Origin: Mesoterricola silvestris
GTDB taxonomy: Bacteria; Acidobacteriota; Holophagae; Holophagales; Holophagaceae
NCBI RefSeq assembly: GCF_030295405.1
Contig: NZ_AP027080.1
Span: forward strand, 3,642,001 to 3,706,000
Direction: 5' to 3'
Length of the DNA stretch: 64,000 nucleotides
Part shown: positions 4,161 to 10,862 of the stretch, piece by piece
Position numbering within the stretch: the stretch's first letter is position 1
Layout of the letters: the number at the start of each line of letters is the position of its first letter
Position numbers and translations under genes: made by a program
Notes under the pieces: model-generated
Database searches by the model: none
Told to the model about the DNA's origin: nothing
What the model saw: only the letters and a program-made list of their open reading frames with translations

Positions 4161-5486
4161 TCAGGGCACCCGGGTGGGGGCCACGGCCATGGATTCGTTG
4201 CCGTCCCGGTCCCGGGTGGCCACCGCGAAAAAGAAATTGTCCGTGCCCACCCCGGGCAGGTCCGCGTGATCCCCCACGGGCACGGCCTTGTCCTCCTGCC
4301 AGGCCACGGCGTCCGCGCTCCGGCGGTACACCACCATGGAGGCGACCCGGGGGTCGGTGATGGGGGTCCAGCTCAGCCGGGCATCGGGGGTGGCGGCGCC
4401 GGAGAGGGTGACGTTGCGCGGCGCCTCCGGGGCCAGGGCCAGGCCGTGGAAGGCGCCCACCATCTCGCGGGTGATCTTGGCGCAGTAGCCGGGGTCGAAG
4501 AAGGCGGGGGAATCCCCGTAGGTGCGCCCGCCCTCGACGCGGGGGATCTGGTGCTGGCGGTCGAAGTTCTCCTGGGTCTCCGTCACCCGGGCCGCGGGGA
4601 AGCCCTCCCGGTTGAAGGCGAGGTGGTCGCCGCCCCGCCCCACGCGGTCCCGGCGGAGCATCACCTTCATTTCCAGCTGGTCCGCGAAGCGCTCCCCGAA
4701 CCGCTTGAGGTACCGCGCGAACTCCCGGCTGGGGGAATCGTTCTCGCCGCCCAGGGCCTCCCGGGCCCGCTTCTGGGCCTCGGTCTCCGCCGCGGGCACG
4801 CCCTCGGAGAAGATGCGGACGGTGCCCCCGGCCTTGGCGCCGCCGGGGCCCGAGGTGTTGCCCACGGTGTCCGCGGCCAGCATCGCGATGACGTTGACCC
4901 CCTCGGCCTTGAGGCGCCGGGCCAGGTGGGCCGCGCCCAGGAGGCCCTGCTCCTCGCCGGCGGTGGCCACGAAGTAGACGTTGACGGCGGTGCGGTCCGC
5001 GCACATGACGTGGGCCATCTCGAAGGCCAGGGCCACGCCGCTGGCGTTGTCCACGGCCCCGGGGGCGTCGCTCTCGGCGTCCATGACGTCGGAGGCGCGG
5101 CTGTCGTAGTGGGCGCACACCACCAGGGCGTCCTTCACCCGGGAGGGGTCCAAGGCCGGGAGCAGCACCCCGACGTTGACCATCTCCGTGGCCTTGGGGA
5201 CCCGGGGGCCCGGCTCCTGGATGAACCGGTCCTCGAAGGGGATGAGGCGGGAACCCGGCAGCATGGCCAGGTCCCGGGTCTCGCCGATGAGCCAGTTCCG
5301 GGCCGCCACGATGCCCCGGGCCTCGGTGGAGGCCTTGGAGAGGGAGTGGCGGGTGCCGAAGGCCGCGAGGCGTTCCACGGTCCTGCGCAGCCGCGCGGAT
5401 TCCACGTGGCCGGCCATGTCCTTGGCCGTTGGCGGAACCTGGGCCCCCAGGGCCAGGGCCAGGGAGAGATAGAGGGGAAGGCGCAT
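4161..5486 (-). CDS. M28 family metallopeptidase with C-terminal Fn3-like domain
   Basis: A 441-residue secreted protein; the ATG at 5486 gives a signal peptide (LPLYLSLALALGAQ). Di-zinc M28 motifs are visible: CAHYDS near residue 125 (His ligand), APGAVDNASG near 145 (bridging Asp), GEEQG near 175 (catalytic Glu and ligand), a further Asp before TVGNTSG near 210, and GGDHLAFN near 295 (His ligand). Residues 350-441 look like a fibronectin type III-like tail (PDARLSWTPITDP). The enzyme should remove N-terminal residues from peptides outside the cytoplasm. The frame stays open upstream to 5732, but that extension lacks a signal and is unlikely to be translated. Confidence 0.87.
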   Translation of the reverse strand: MRLPLYLSLALALGAQVPPTAKDMAGHVESARLRRTVERLAAFGTRHSLSKASTEARGIVAARNWLIGETRDLAMLPGSRLIPFEDRFIQEPGPRVPKATEMVNVGVLLPALDPSRVKDALVVCAHYDSRASDVMDAESDAPGAVDNASGVALAFEMAHVMCADRTAVNVYFVATAGEEQGLLGAAHLARRLKAEGVNVIAMLAADTVGNTSGPGGAKAGGTVRIFSEGVPAAETEAQKRAREALGGENDSPSREFARYLKRFGERFADQLEMKVMLRRDRVGRGGDHLAFNREGFPAARVTETQENFDRQHQIPRVEGGRTYGDSPAFFDPGYCAKITREMVGAFHGLALAPEAPRNVTLSGAATPDARLSWTPITDPRVASMVVYRRSADAVAWQEDKAVPVGDHADLPGVGTDNFFFAVATRDRDGNESMAVAPTRVP

Positions 5487-5577
5487 GGGGACTCCGGAGC
5501 TCTTCCCCATCCTACCCCTTCCGGGCAAAGGCCGGTCCCCGGTGCTAGACTTTCCAACTATTGTCCAGGGAGTCATC

Positions 5578-6330
5578 ATGTTCGAACTCAAAGGCAGGAT
5601 TGCCCTCATCACCGGCGCCAGCCAGGGCATCGGCGAAACCATCGCCCGGAATCTGGCCCGCCAGGGCGCCTTCACCGTCTGCGCCAGCCTTCCCTCCACC
5701 GAGGAGGACCTGAAGAAGGTCGTCGCCGGCATCCAGGCCGAGGGCGGCCAGGCCGACTACGTCCTGCTGGACATGGGCAAGGGCGAGACCATCCGCGCCG
5801 CCGTGGCCACGGTCCTGGAGCGCCACGGCGCCCTCCACATCCTGGTGAACAACGCCGGCATCACCAAGGACAAGCTCATGATCCAGATGAAGGAGGAGGA
5901 GTTCGAGCTGGTGCTCGACATCAACCTCAAGGGTTCCTGGCTGGCCACCCAGGCCGTGGCCAAGGCCATGATGAAGCAGCGCTGGGGCCGGATCATCAAC
6001 ATCGTCTCCGTGGTGGGCCAGATGGGCAACGCCGGCCAGAGCAACTACGTGGCCTCCAAGGCCGGCCTCATCGGCCTCACCAAGACCGTGGCCCGGGAAT
6101 TCGCCAGCCGCAACATCACCTGCAACGCCGTGGCCCCCGGCTACATCGCCACCGCCATGACCGACAAGCTCCCCGAGGAGGTGAAGGCCGAATTCAACCG
6201 CCAGATCCCCCTGGGCCGCATGGGCACCCCCACGGACATCGCCAACGCGGTCTCCTTCCTGGCGTCCGAGGAGGCCGAGTACATGACCGGCCAGGTGCTC
6301 AGCGTGAACGGCGGAATGCTCATGCCGTAG
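5578..6330 (+). CDS. fabG: 3-oxoacyl-ACP reductase-type SDR (FabG family)
   Basis: A 250-residue classical short-chain dehydrogenase. Visible motifs are the NADP-binding TGASQGIGE near residue 13, NNAG near 88, the catalytic Ser in NIVSVVG near 140, and the Tyr-Lys pair in SNYVASKAG near 155. The length and the C-terminal NGGML are typical of FabG. It probably reduces 3-oxoacyl-ACP, but FabG paralogues often serve special pathways. The ATG at 5578 was preferred over the longer open frame because homologues begin with the MFELKGRIALITG type of start. It sits 75 bp upstream of the Pls-type synthetase gene and may be co-transcribed with it. Confidence 0.85.
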   Translation: MFELKGRIALITGASQGIGETIARNLARQGAFTVCASLPSTEEDLKKVVAGIQAEGGQADYVLLDMGKGETIRAAVATVLERHGALHILVNNAGITKDKLMIQMKEEEFELVLDINLKGSWLATQAVAKAMMKQRWGRIINIVSVVGQMGNAGQSNYVASKAGLIGLTKTVAREFASRNITCNAVAPGYIATAMTDKLPEEVKAEFNRQIPLGRMGTPTDIANAVSFLASEEAEYMTGQVLSVNGGMLMP

Positions 6331-6405
6331 GTTAAACGTCGGGAGGGCGCCCCGGGTCACACCTGGGACGCCCGCCCTGTGCGCCCCCTGACTTCGAGGT
6401 CCGCT

Positions 6406-9400
6406 GTGCAAACCCTCCCGACGCCGGCCGCCCCGGACGTGGTGCGCGGGGAGCTCCTCGCCGGGCTCTTCGAGGCCACCGCCGACCGGTACGGGAACCG
6501 CACCGCCCTGGAGTTCGAGGGGCGCAGCCTCACCTACGGGGAACTGGACGCCAGGGCCAACCGCCTGGCCCGGCTCCTCCAGGAGCGGGGGGCGGGGCCC
6601 GGCGTCTACGTGGGCCTCTTCCTTCCCCGGGGCCTGGACGCCCTGGTCGCGCTGCTGGCCATCCTCAAGGCCGGCGCGGCCTACGTGCCCCTGGACCCCG
6701 ATACGCCCCCGGACCGGGTGCGGGCCATCCTCCAGGATTCCTCCGCGAGGCTCCTGGTGTCCTCCCTGGGCCTGGCGGCCCCGGTGGCCGGGGGTCCCTG
6801 GACCCCGGTGCTCCTGGAGGAGGAGGCCGCGGCCCTGGAGGCCCTCTCCCCCGCGCGGCCCCCCTGCCGGGCCCGGCCCGGGGACCCCTGCTACGCCATC
6901 TTCACCAGCGGATCCACGGGGCGCCCCAAGGGCGTGGCCGTGGCGCACCGGTCCGTGTGCAACCTGGTGCGCGCCGAAGGGGGGATCTTCGGGGTCAACG
7001 ACGGGGACCGGGTCTTCCAGGGCTTCTCCCTGGCCTTCGACGCCTCGGTGGAGGAGATCTGGCTGGCCTGGCACGCCGGCGCCGCCCTGGTGGCGGGCGG
7101 AGCCGCCGTCGTCAAGAACGGCCCCGCCCTTCCCGCGTGGCTGCGGGAGCGGGGCATCACGGTGCTCTCCACCGTCCCCACCCTGCTGGGGACCTTCGAC
7201 GAGGACGTGCCCGGCCTGCGCCTCCTCATCCTGGGCGGGGAGGCCTGCCCCCAGGACCTGGTGCGCCGCTGGGCGCCCTCCCGGCGCATGGTGAACACCT
7301 ACGGCCCCACCGAGGCCTGCGTCATCGCCACCTGGACCGACCTCGCCCCGGACCGCCCCGTCACCATCGGCAGGGCCATCCCCAACCTCCGCACCTACGT
7401 CCTGGACCCGGACCTGGCCCCGGCGTCGGAGGGGGAGCTGTGCCTGTCGGGCATCGGCCTCGCCCTGGGCTACCTGGGCCGCCCCGACCTCACCGCGGAG
7501 CGCTTCCCCGCCAATCCCTACGCGGACGGCCCCCACACGGAGCGCCTCTACCGCACCGGCGACAAGGTGCGCGTGGACGCCGCGGGGGACCTGGAATTCC
7601 TGGGGCGCCTGGACGACCAGGTCAAGCTCCGCGGGTTCCGGGTGGAGCTGGGCGAGATCGAGGCCGCCCTGCGCGCACAGGCCGGCGTCCAGGGCGCGGC
7701 CGCCGCGGTGCGCAGCGAGGGCGGACCTGACCAGCTGGTGGGCTACGTGGCGCCGGGCCCCGCGGACGAGGACGCCCTGCGCGCCGCCCTGCGCAGGACC
7801 CTGCCCTCGTACATGATCCCCGCCCGCATCGTCGCCCTGGAGGCCCTGCCCGTGCTCCCCAGCGGCAAGCTGGACCGCAAGGCCCTCCCGGCCCCCCCGC
7901 CCCGGGCCGCGGCGGACCGGACCCCCGAGGCCCCGTCCTCCCCCCGGGAGCGGGCCCTGGCCGAAGCCTGGGCCCGGCTCTTCCACCTGGAGGCCGTGGG
8001 CCTGGACCAGGACTTCTTCACGGACCTGGGGGGCCACTCGCTCCTGGCCGCCCTCATGGTCTCGGAACTGCGCAGGACCGGCGCGTTCCTGGGTCTCTCG
8101 GTGCCCGATGTGTACGCGTGCCCCACGGTGCGCCTCCTGGCAAAGGAGATGGACGCCCGGAACCCCGCGCCCCAGGCGCCGGCCCCCGTGACGGCCCCCC
8201 GGCCCCGCTGGGTCCGGTGGCTCTGCCAGGGGGCCCAGGCCGCGGGGCTCTACCCGCTCCTGGGCTATTTCGGCCTGCAGTGGCTGGCCCCCTACCTCAC
8301 CTACAGCTGGCTCATCGACCACGACTTCGACCGGGCCCCGGCCCTGGCCGCGGCCGCGGGGGTGATCCTGGTGCTCAACCCCGCGATGTTCCTGCTGTCC
8401 ATCGCCGCCAAGTGGATCCTCCTGGGCCGGGTGCGGCCGGGGATCCACCCCCTGTGGGGCTCGTACCACCTGCGCTGGTGGCTGGCGACGCGCATCCAGG
8501 CCGCGACCCCCACCGGCTACCTGGTGGGCACCCCCTGGATGCGGGCCTACCTGCGCCTCATGGGCGCCCGGGTGGGGCCCCACACCCACTTCGCCACGGA
8601 CTGCATGCGGGGCTTCGACCTCCTTTCGGTGGGCGCCGACACCTGCATCGGCGTGGACGCGCGCCTGGAGGCCTACGTCATCGAGAACGGCGCCCTGCGC
8701 CTGGGGCCCATCACCGTGGGTTCCCGCTGCTGCGTGGGCGCCCGGGCCGTGCTGGCCCCCGGGACCGTCATGGAGGACGGCGCCGAGCTGGGCGACCTGA
8801 GCATGCTCCCCGAGGGCGCGCGCATTCCGGCCGAAAAGCACTGGGTGGGCTCCCCCGCCCTGCCCCTGCCGGGCCCGGACCGGTCCGGGCTGGCCCCCTC
8901 CCGCCCGGGGCGCGCCCGCATCGCGGCCATGGCCGTGGCCCAGGGATTGGCGGCCTTCCTGGTGCCCGTGGTCTTCCTCGCCTCCATCCTCCCCGGCATG
9001 ATGCTGCTGAACGAGCTGTGGATCGATATCCCCGGCTACTTCGGCTACCTGTGGGCGGTGCCCCTGGCGGCCATCTCGTACGTGGTGCTCCTGAGCCTGA
9101 TCATCGTCGGCGTCAAGCGCGCCGCCATCGGCCGGGTGAAGGCGGGCACCTACGACCTGACCTCCTTCTACTACCTGCGGAAGTGGTTCGTGGACCAGCT
9201 CATGGAGATCTCCCTGGATCTCCTGGGCCCCCTCTACGCCACGCTCTACCTGAACCCCTGGTTCCGGGCCCTGGGCGCCACCATCGGGCGGCGCGCCGAG
9301 ATCTCCACCGCCGGCGCCGCCACGCCGGACCTCCTGGAGATCGGGGAGGAGACCTTCATCGCCGACGCGGCCTCCCTGGGCACCCCCCGCTTCGACCTGG

Positions 9401-10317
9401 GCCGGGTCACCCTGGCGCCGACCCGCGTGGGCCGGCGGGCCTTCGTGGGCAACAGCTCCGCGGTGCCCGGGGGCACGTCCCTGGGGGACCTCGCCCTGGT
9501 GGGGGTCCTTTCCGTGCCGCCCCTGGATCCCGCCGAGGCCGCGAGGGTCGACGCCTCCTGGCTGGGCTCCCCCGCCATCTTCCTGCCCCGGCGCCACCAC
9601 GCCGAGGGGTTCGGGGAGGACCGCACCTTCACCCCTTCCCGCAGGCTGGTGGCCCTGCGCCTGGGCATCGAGTTCTTCCGGGTGACCCTGCCGGCCATGG
9701 CCTACGCCCTCCTCACCTGCCTGATGCTCACCACCCTCACCGTCCTGGAGGAGCGCATCGGCCTGGGAAGGGCCATCCTGCTCTTCCCCCTCCTGTACTT
9801 CGCCGCCGGGGTCGCCGCGTCGATCTTCACCGTGGCCATGAAGTGGGTCCTCATCGGCCGCTACCGCCCCTGCGAAAAGCCCCTGTGGTGCGGGTTCGTG
9901 TGGCGCACCGAGCTGGTGTCGTCCCTCCACGAGAACCTGGCCGCGTCCTGGCTCCTGAACCTCTGCCAGGGCACGGCCCTGCTGCCCGCGTACTTCCGGC
10001 TCCTGGGCGCCCGCGTCGGCCGGGGCGTGCACATGGAGACCATCTGGATGACGGAGTTCGATCTGGTGCGCATCGGCGACGGCGTCTGCCTGGGTCCAGA
10101 CTGCACCCTCCAGACCCACCTCTTCGAGGACCGGGTCATGAAGATGTCCACCGTCGACCTGGGCGAGGGCTGCTCCGTGGGCACCGACGCCGTGGTACTC
10201 TACGGCACCCGCCTGGAACCCGGCTCCCACCTGGGGGACCTCTCCCTCCTCATGAAGGGGGAGACCCTCCCCGAAGGCACCCGCTGGCACGGGAGCCCCG
10301 CCCGGCGCCTCCCGTGA
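6406..10317 (+). CDS. Pls/PosA-family membrane-bound non-ribosomal peptide synthetase
   Basis: A protein of about 1300 residues (GTG at 6406 behind GAGG; GTG at 6379 is the alternative). The adenylation domain covers residues 15-500 with YAIFTSGSTGRPKGVAV, NTYGPTEA, YRTGDKV and GRLDDQVKLRGFRVELGEIE. A carrier domain follows with LGGHSLLA (phosphopantetheine Ser near 545). The remaining 700 residues hold about six membrane segments and three hexapeptide-repeat-like soluble blocks (for example GPITVGSRCCVGARAVL). This A-T-transmembrane layout is that of Pls, the epsilon-poly-L-lysine synthetase family (TIGR02353 type), which has no ordinary condensation or thioesterase domain. The substrate cannot be named from sequence alone; FDASVEEIW shows the usual binding-pocket Asp. 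The PPTase gene overlaps its end. Confidence 0.86.
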   Translation: MQTLPTPAAPDVVRGELLAGLFEATADRYGNRTALEFEGRSLTYGELDARANRLARLLQERGAGPGVYVGLFLPRGLDALVALLAILKAGAAYVPLDPDTPPDRVRAILQDSSARLLVSSLGLAAPVAGGPWTPVLLEEEAAALEALSPARPPCRARPGDPCYAIFTSGSTGRPKGVAVAHRSVCNLVRAEGGIFGVNDGDRVFQGFSLAFDASVEEIWLAWHAGAALVAGGAAVVKNGPALPAWLRERGITVLSTVPTLLGTFDEDVPGLRLLILGGEACPQDLVRRWAPSRRMVNTYGPTEACVIATWTDLAPDRPVTIGRAIPNLRTYVLDPDLAPASEGELCLSGIGLALGYLGRPDLTAERFPANPYADGPHTERLYRTGDKVRVDAAGDLEFLGRLDDQVKLRGFRVELGEIEAALRAQAGVQGAAAAVRSEGGPDQLVGYVAPGPADEDALRAALRRTLPSYMIPARIVALEALPVLPSGKLDRKALPAPPPRAAADRTPEAPSSPRERALAEAWARLFHLEAVGLDQDFFTDLGGHSLLAALMVSELRRTGAFLGLSVPDVYACPTVRLLAKEMDARNPAPQAPAPVTAPRPRWVRWLCQGAQAAGLYPLLGYFGLQWLAPYLTYSWLIDHDFDRAPALAAAAGVILVLNPAMFLLSIAAKWILLGRVRPGIHPLWGSYHLRWWLATRIQAATPTGYLVGTPWMRAYLRLMGARVGPHTHFATDCMRGFDLLSVGADTCIGVDARLEAYVIENGALRLGPITVGSRCCVGARAVLAPGTVMEDGAELGDLSMLPEGARIPAEKHWVGSPALPLPGPDRSGLAPSRPGRARIAAMAVAQGLAAFLVPVVFLASILPGMMLLNELWIDIPGYFGYLWAVPLAAISYVVLLSLIIVGVKRAAIGRVKAGTYDLTSFYYLRKWFVDQLMEISLDLLGPLYATLYLNPWFRALGATIGRRAEISTAGAATPDLLEIGEETFIADAASLGTPRFDLGRVTLAPTRVGRRAFVGNSSAVPGGTSLGDLALVGVLSVPPLDPAEAARVDASWLGSPAIFLPRRHHAEGFGEDRTFTPSRRLVALRLGIEFFRVTLPAMAYALLTCLMLTTLTVLEERIGLGRAILLFPLLYFAAGVAASIFTVAMKWVLIGRYRPCEKPLWCGFVWRTELVSSLHENLAASWLLNLCQGTALLPAYFRLLGARVGRGVHMETIWMTEFDLVRIGDGVCLGPDCTLQTHLFEDRVMKMSTVDLGEGCSVGTDAVVLYGTRLEPGSHLGDLSLLMKGETLPEGTRWHGSPARRLP

Positions 10318-10862
10318 GGCCGGCCTTCGCCCTCCTCCCGGCCTTCACCGAGGCCACCGCCCTGCCCGGCCTGGCCCGGGAGCTGGGCCTGGACGCCCCT
10401 GCCCGCTTCGCCGGCCACGACGCCCACGGCCGCCCCCTGGCCGAGGCCGCGGGCCTCCCGGTGCCGGTGAGCCTCAGCCGCTGCGGGCCCGTCACGGCCG
10501 TCGCCCTGGGATCCGCGGGCCGGGTGGGCGTGGACCTGGTGGACCCCCGCTGCGGCATCCCCACCGGGGGCCTCCTGGACCTCGCCGCCCCCGGGGAGCG
10601 GACCTGGCTGGAACCCCTTTCCGGTCCCGAGCTGCGCCGCAGGGTCTTCCAGGTGTGGGCCTGCCGGGAGGCGCTGCTCAAGGCCCTGGGCCTGGGCCTC
10701 ACCCTGGATCCCGGGGCCGTGGAGCTGGAACCCGACGGCGAGGGCCTCCGCCCCTCCCGCGTCCTGGGCAGCCCGGCACCCCCCACCGGCTGGCACGTGC
10801 AGCTGCTGGACGGGGAGGGGCTGGCGGAAGGGTTGATCCTGGCCCTGGCCTGGGCGGACTAA
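10314..10862 (+). CDS. 4'-phosphopantetheinyl transferase (Sfp-type)
   Basis: A 182-residue protein starting at GTG 10314, overlapping the synthetase stop as GTGA. The Sfp-type motifs are VGVDLVDPR near residue 60 (Mg-binding Asp) and WACREALLKALGLGL near residue 115, the equivalent of the W-x-x-K-E-A-x-x-K box, with Arg where Lys is usual in the first position. It should convert the apo carrier domain of the upstream synthetase to the holo form using CoA. It is shorter than Sfp (about 224 residues) and its N-terminal half is poorly conserved. Translational coupling strongly implies a dedicated partner of the Pls-like enzyme. Confidence 0.82.
   Translation: MRPAFALLPAFTEATALPGLARELGLDAPARFAGHDAHGRPLAEAAGLPVPVSLSRCGPVTAVALGSAGRVGVDLVDPRCGIPTGGLLDLAAPGERTWLEPLSGPELRRRVFQVWACREALLKALGLGLTLDPGAVELEPDGEGLRPSRVLGSPAPPTGWHVQLLDGEGLAEGLILALAWAD

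Follow-up and report, generated by a model that had tools for sequence, protein, structure and literature searches.

A predicted lysine-activating Pls/PosA-type synthetase overlapping the gene of its own putative phosphopantetheinyl transferase in a Holophagaceae acidobacterium

Two overlapping genes

The DNA analysed here (the window) is a stretch of 64,000 nucleotides from an acidobacterium of the family Holophagaceae. On its forward strand it carries a gene for a synthetase of the Pls/PosA family (6406–10317), in which an adenylation (A) and a carrier (T) domain are followed by a terminal membrane domain, and a gene for an Sfp-type phosphopantetheinyl transferase (PPTase) of 182 amino acids (10314–10862). 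The stop codon of the first gene and the start codon of the second share the bases GTGA (10314–10317, forward strand), and this overlap is kept in the close relative G070. The original prediction described a single A-T-six-helix module overlapping a PPTase gene by GTGA; the open reading frame, the domains and the junction all bear this out.

The reading frame of the synthetase (6379–10317, forward strand) offers two GTG start codons, giving 1312 amino acids from position 6379 and 1303 from position 6406. The second is most likely the better start, since a GAGG motif just 5′ of it and the GTG itself are both kept in G070, while the alignment to G070 is gapped across the stretch at 6379. Residue numbers used below for the synthetase (domains, Ser554 and QTHLFEDR) are counted from the 6379 start. 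In comparison with G070, dN/dS was 0.08/0.32 for the synthetase gene and 0.15/0.40 for the PPTase gene. Because dN lies well under dS in both, the two genes are under purifying selection and are more than chance reading frames.

Upstream of the synthetase lies a real fabG gene (5578–6330), which had tentatively been counted as part of the unit. It is found upstream in all three synthetase-bearing members of the genus, but unrelated neighbours (peptidases and a hydrolase-like gene) are shared there equally, and FabG is absent from the loci of the sister genus. For these reasons we rejected FabG as a member of the unit; it is not a conserved partner. A GC-rich hairpin (about 6341–6377; −29.7 kcal/mol, z −2.9) lies between fabG and the synthetase gene, and was dropped as a functional element because it is not conserved in G070 or G066.

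Domains of the synthetase

The synthetase has the features of the Pls/PosA family, namely one adenylation and one carrier domain followed by the NRPS_term_dom region, without a condensation domain; no condensation domain match was found anywhere in the genome. The adenylation domain (residues 31–503; 6469–7887, forward strand) matched AMP-binding (PF00501, 262.9 bits) and AMP-binding_C (PF13193), and the carrier domain (residues 526–589; 7954–8145, forward strand) matched PP-binding (PF00550, 37.1 bits), all above the Pfam cut-offs. The phosphopantetheine site is Ser554 (8038–8040, forward strand) in the motif DLGGHSLL, a residue that is invariant in the alignment of homologues. The TIGR02353/NRPS_term_dom model scored 669.9 bits over residues 620–1308, nearly the full profile, against an NCBIfam cut-off of 423.1. 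Clustering with a non-Pls clade of nonribosomal peptide synthetases would have spoken against the original assignment; both the curated model and the tree place the enzyme inside the Pls/PosA family.

The terminal domain (8236–10302, forward strand) consists of three repeats of a helix pair and a left-handed beta-helix. An AlphaFold model built from a 17-row alignment (pLDDT 90.7) has six long helices arranged in three pairs with beta-helix between them, and agrees with the published model of PosA (PMC10522769). The six helices are putative membrane helices. Within the third repeat lies the motif QTHLFEDR (residues 1245–1252; 10111–10134, forward strand). Residues Q1245, H1247, E1250, D1251 and K1255 of this region are conserved in 97% or more of the 39 homologues compared, and we propose the near-invariant motif as a candidate polymerisation site with a presumed catalytic role. 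When the terminal domain was used for a fold search of the PDB, hexapeptide acyltransferases were matched weakly (E about 1e-4). This resemblance, together with the fact that polymerisation has been demonstrated for very few members of the family, would suit an enzyme that transfers a single lysine to an acceptor such as a lipid, glycan or peptide without polymerising it. We regard such a single transfer as very improbable, since the complete three-repeat domain and the near-invariant QTHLFEDR are common to PosA, a proven polymerase (PMC10522769). A polymerising role of the terminal domain is thus preferred.

Substrate pocket and predicted monomer

In order to predict the monomer, the adenylation code was extracted, as the original prediction had suggested, by alignment to PosA using its published residue numbering (PMC10522769). 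The pocket code was DAESIGTVIK. No key residue is lost: the pocket residues are intact and include Asp at code position 1 and Glu at position 3, both of which are required in the Pls/PosA family (PMC10522769). The same code was found in all Holophagaceae of the clade to which the synthetase belongs, in the metagenome-assembled genome (MAG) locus L065 and in one Paludibacter MAG. The homologue from S. cattleyicolor has the code DAESIGTVVK, and the adenylation domain of epsilon-poly-L-lysine synthetase, for which a structure has been solved (7wew), shows these residues too in the printed alignment. The pocket of the window synthetase is therefore identical to that of 7wew at 9 of 10 positions, with V to I at position 9 and the lysine-type Ala at position 2. 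In contrast, the PosA code, DMEHNGTVSK, differs at 5 of 10 positions. A Streptomyces homologue that adjoins a diaminobutyrate transaminase gene has the code DFECLSAVTK. Since the pocket is one residue away from the lysine enzyme and unlike that of PosA, L-lysine is our best prediction of the monomer from the sequence.

The Ala at position 2 is insufficient by itself to force lysine. The M218A variant of PosA still prefers ornithine, with kcat/KM of 474 for ornithine versus 27.6 for lysine (PMC10522769), and ornithine is for this reason the main rival monomer. The same machine would then polymerise ornithine or a different diamino acid. The clade also lies nearer to the PosA side than to the S. 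cattleyicolor branch in the tree of terminal domains, although the latter branch is very long. Set against these points is the pocket itself, with its single difference from the lysine enzyme and five from PosA, and we consider a monomer other than lysine to be unlikely. Lysine is retained as the predicted monomer.

The PPTase, free and fused

The 182-residue product of the second gene (10314–10862, forward strand) matched PF01648 with 39.5 bits, above the cut-off. No match was found in a sequence search of the PDB with this protein. A structural model (pLDDT 75.5, the first 29 residues being poor) was used for a fold search of the PDB and matched the PPTase of aminoadipate-semialdehyde dehydrogenase, Sfp and PptAb, with 4mrt (Sfp) and 2c43 among the matches. 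In the alignment of these PPTases, D74, E119 and K123 are invariant, Asp74 and Glu119 being the predicted Mg-binding residues at the essential first and third positions of the triad. The protein is nevertheless divergent: the middle position of the triad is Val76 instead of Glu, and the SxSH motif has Arg where His is usual. Val as the middle triad residue has been described in fungi and plants and was absent from 361 bacterial sequences, and this residue is dispensable (PMC4103896).

In 12 of 13 intact sister-genus loci (L057 among them) the synthetase itself carries this PPTase as a C-terminal fusion, giving proteins of 1537–1781 amino acids whose last ~200 residues are the PPTase. The fused part of one of these proteins matched PF01648 with 62.6 bits, and the synthetase fragments of another sister-genus genome, G037, resemble the fused form. 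The thirteenth locus, from the complete genome G034, has a separate PPTase gene that overlaps the synthetase stop codon by ATGA. In the synthetase tree its synthetase falls within the group of fused proteins, and thus the PPTase was probably split from the synthetase in the G034 lineage. The 14 PPTases associated with Pls-type synthetases, free and fused, formed one clade (bootstrap 96, SH-aLRT 99) within a small comparison set.

Co-occurrence of the synthetase and PPTase

The synthetase was found in 17 of 77 Holophagaceae genomes (16 over the cut-off plus the fragmented G037). All 17 have at least two PF01648 matches, compared with 2 of the 60 others (Fisher p 3.5e-15), a p value that is informal because the 77 genomes share ancestry and a fused locus brings some of the co-occurrence with it automatically. 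The informative parts are that most genomes lacking the synthetase have a single PF01648 match, and that G066, whose synthetase has no adjacent PPTase, encodes two further PPTases close to genes for carriers or nonribosomal peptide synthetases.

Other carriers could be the main targets of the PPTase, for instance the small acyl carrier proteins encoded near 760–780 kb of the genome, the overlap with the synthetase gene then being incidental. The genome has eight further PP-binding matches, and there are genomes with AcpS only that carry a second kind of synthetase with the code DSECYGGVTK (e.g. G053). The fusion in the sister genus, the single PPTase clade and the co-occurrence all argue against this explanation, and we give it little credence. 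The same three observations mean that a self-contained synthetase with its own dedicated, predicted PPTase, as originally proposed, is well supported at the level of sequence; the fused homologues and the co-occurrence strengthen that proposal.

Distribution and relation to known systems

Among 396 genomes drawn from the phylum, TIGR02353 was over the cut-off in 11, and 8 of these belong to the Holophagaceae. In the terminal-domain tree the window synthetase groups with its genus and the sister genus (support 100) and then with L065 (90). This clade is separate from the lysine-type branch of S. cattleyicolor; the sole lysine-type actinomycete row (L140) is very long-branched. Overall identity to characterised enzymes is ~35–45%. 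The L065 synthetase is ~51% identical to that of the window, and comes from a MAG contig (CALQJI020000013.1) titled Klebsiella pneumoniae, a title that is probably wrong.

The original prediction noted that the organism type here differs from the actinomycetes and fungi in which such enzymes make epsilon-poly-lysine. The family is not limited to those groups: homologues, several with uncharacterised codes, are known in many phyla, and PosA itself is from Acinetobacter (PMC10522769). The presence of the family in acidobacteria is therefore an extension rather than a surprise.

The Pls of Streptomyces albulus (7wew) shares the A-T-terminal-domain layout and 9 of 10 pocket residues with the window synthetase but belongs to another clade, and no description of a PPTase overlap or fusion for it was found in the open-access literature. 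PosA of Acinetobacter baumannii, which makes delta-poly-L-ornithine (PMC10522769), shares the architecture, the near-invariant residues of the terminal domain and ~38% overall identity; it differs in its ornithine pocket. We found no description in the open-access literature of a PPTase in cis to any enzyme of the Pls/PosA family. Within the literature searched, a PPTase in cis, either fused or overlapping, is new for these enzymes.

A PPTase domain is an integral part of fungal fatty acid synthases and enediyne polyketide synthases. The sister-genus proteins resemble these in having carrier and PPTase in one polypeptide, but the products of the former are fatty acids and polyketides while the enzymes described here are predicted synthetases of an amino-acid homopolymer.

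Proposed function of the unit

We propose that the two genes form a translationally coupled unit. The Sfp-type PPTase would put the phosphopantetheine arm on the carrier domain of the synthetase. The adenylation domain, judged by its pocket, would activate L-lysine and the enzyme would load it onto its own carrier domain, after which the terminal membrane domain would repeatedly join the side-chain amine to the carboxylate. Membership of the family suggests that the product would be a cationic isopeptide polymer like epsilon-poly-L-lysine, which may serve as an antimicrobial or a surface polymer. Taken as a whole, a two-gene unit of a lysine-activating Pls/PosA-type synthetase with a dedicated predicted PPTase, making a cationic isopeptide polymer, is in our judgement a fairly likely reading. 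Several points weigh against it: the low overall identity to characterised enzymes, the clade apart from the S. cattleyicolor branch, the ornithine preference of PosA M218A, the divergent triad and SxSH motif of the PPTase, and the retention of the synthetase in G066 in the absence of a neighbouring PPTase gene.

For the broader idea that the Holophagaceae have a self-priming poly-lysine synthetase, we put the chances at about even. In the sister genus a single polypeptide would combine the adenylation and carrier domains, the membrane polymerase and the PPTase; in the window the same parts would be spread over two overlapping genes. If this is true, the polymer system would be autonomous. Polymers of the poly-lysine type are used as food preservatives, and their production in other hosts depends on active, pantetheinylated synthetase. 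A synthetase with its own PPTase would offer a simple system based on one gene, in which polymerisation by the membrane domain could be studied cleanly. The prediction also assigns a cationic polymer to a family of acidobacteria that has been little studied, and we found no account of a product of this kind in Holophagaceae in the open-access literature.

Other Pls-like loci

Several related loci were seen in the course of this analysis. At L155 (3640–9113) in G146, from another family of Acidobacteriota, a Pls homologue begins 5 bases after the end of a gene resembling lysine 2,3-aminomutase (Pfam LAM_C over the cut-off). The code of this homologue, DGESVSAVNK, is close to the epsilon-poly-beta-lysine code DGESISVVNK, and the locus is an acidobacterial candidate for an epsilon-poly-beta-lysine unit.

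The Holophagaceae synthetases with the code DSECYGGVTK make up a second Pls-like clade (L051–L056, from G053, G064, G059, G047, G044 and G040). These proteins score under the TIGR02353 cut-off, and no PPTase was found beside them in the stretches examined. A Bdellovibrionales enzyme with the identical code is reported to activate arginine weakly (PMC10522769).

Six synthetases (L039, L042, L045, L046, L047 and L050) have an extra N-terminal region of ~150 residues before the adenylation domain, ending in a stretch like the usual condensation-adenylation linker. A condensation-domain remnant was considered for this region in some of the sister-genus proteins and rejected, there being no Pfam match. 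In an unrelated proteobacterial MAG (L062), a PPTase gene (5214–5828) lies directly 5′ of a Pls homologue with the code DLEDIGSVVK, a possible independent pairing. Finally, most Holophagaceae genomes have single genes, such as that at 1297–2043 of L004, for proteins of ~250–290 amino acids with a match to a single repeat of the Pls terminal domain; these are possibly kin of the unit that gave rise to the three-repeat domain.
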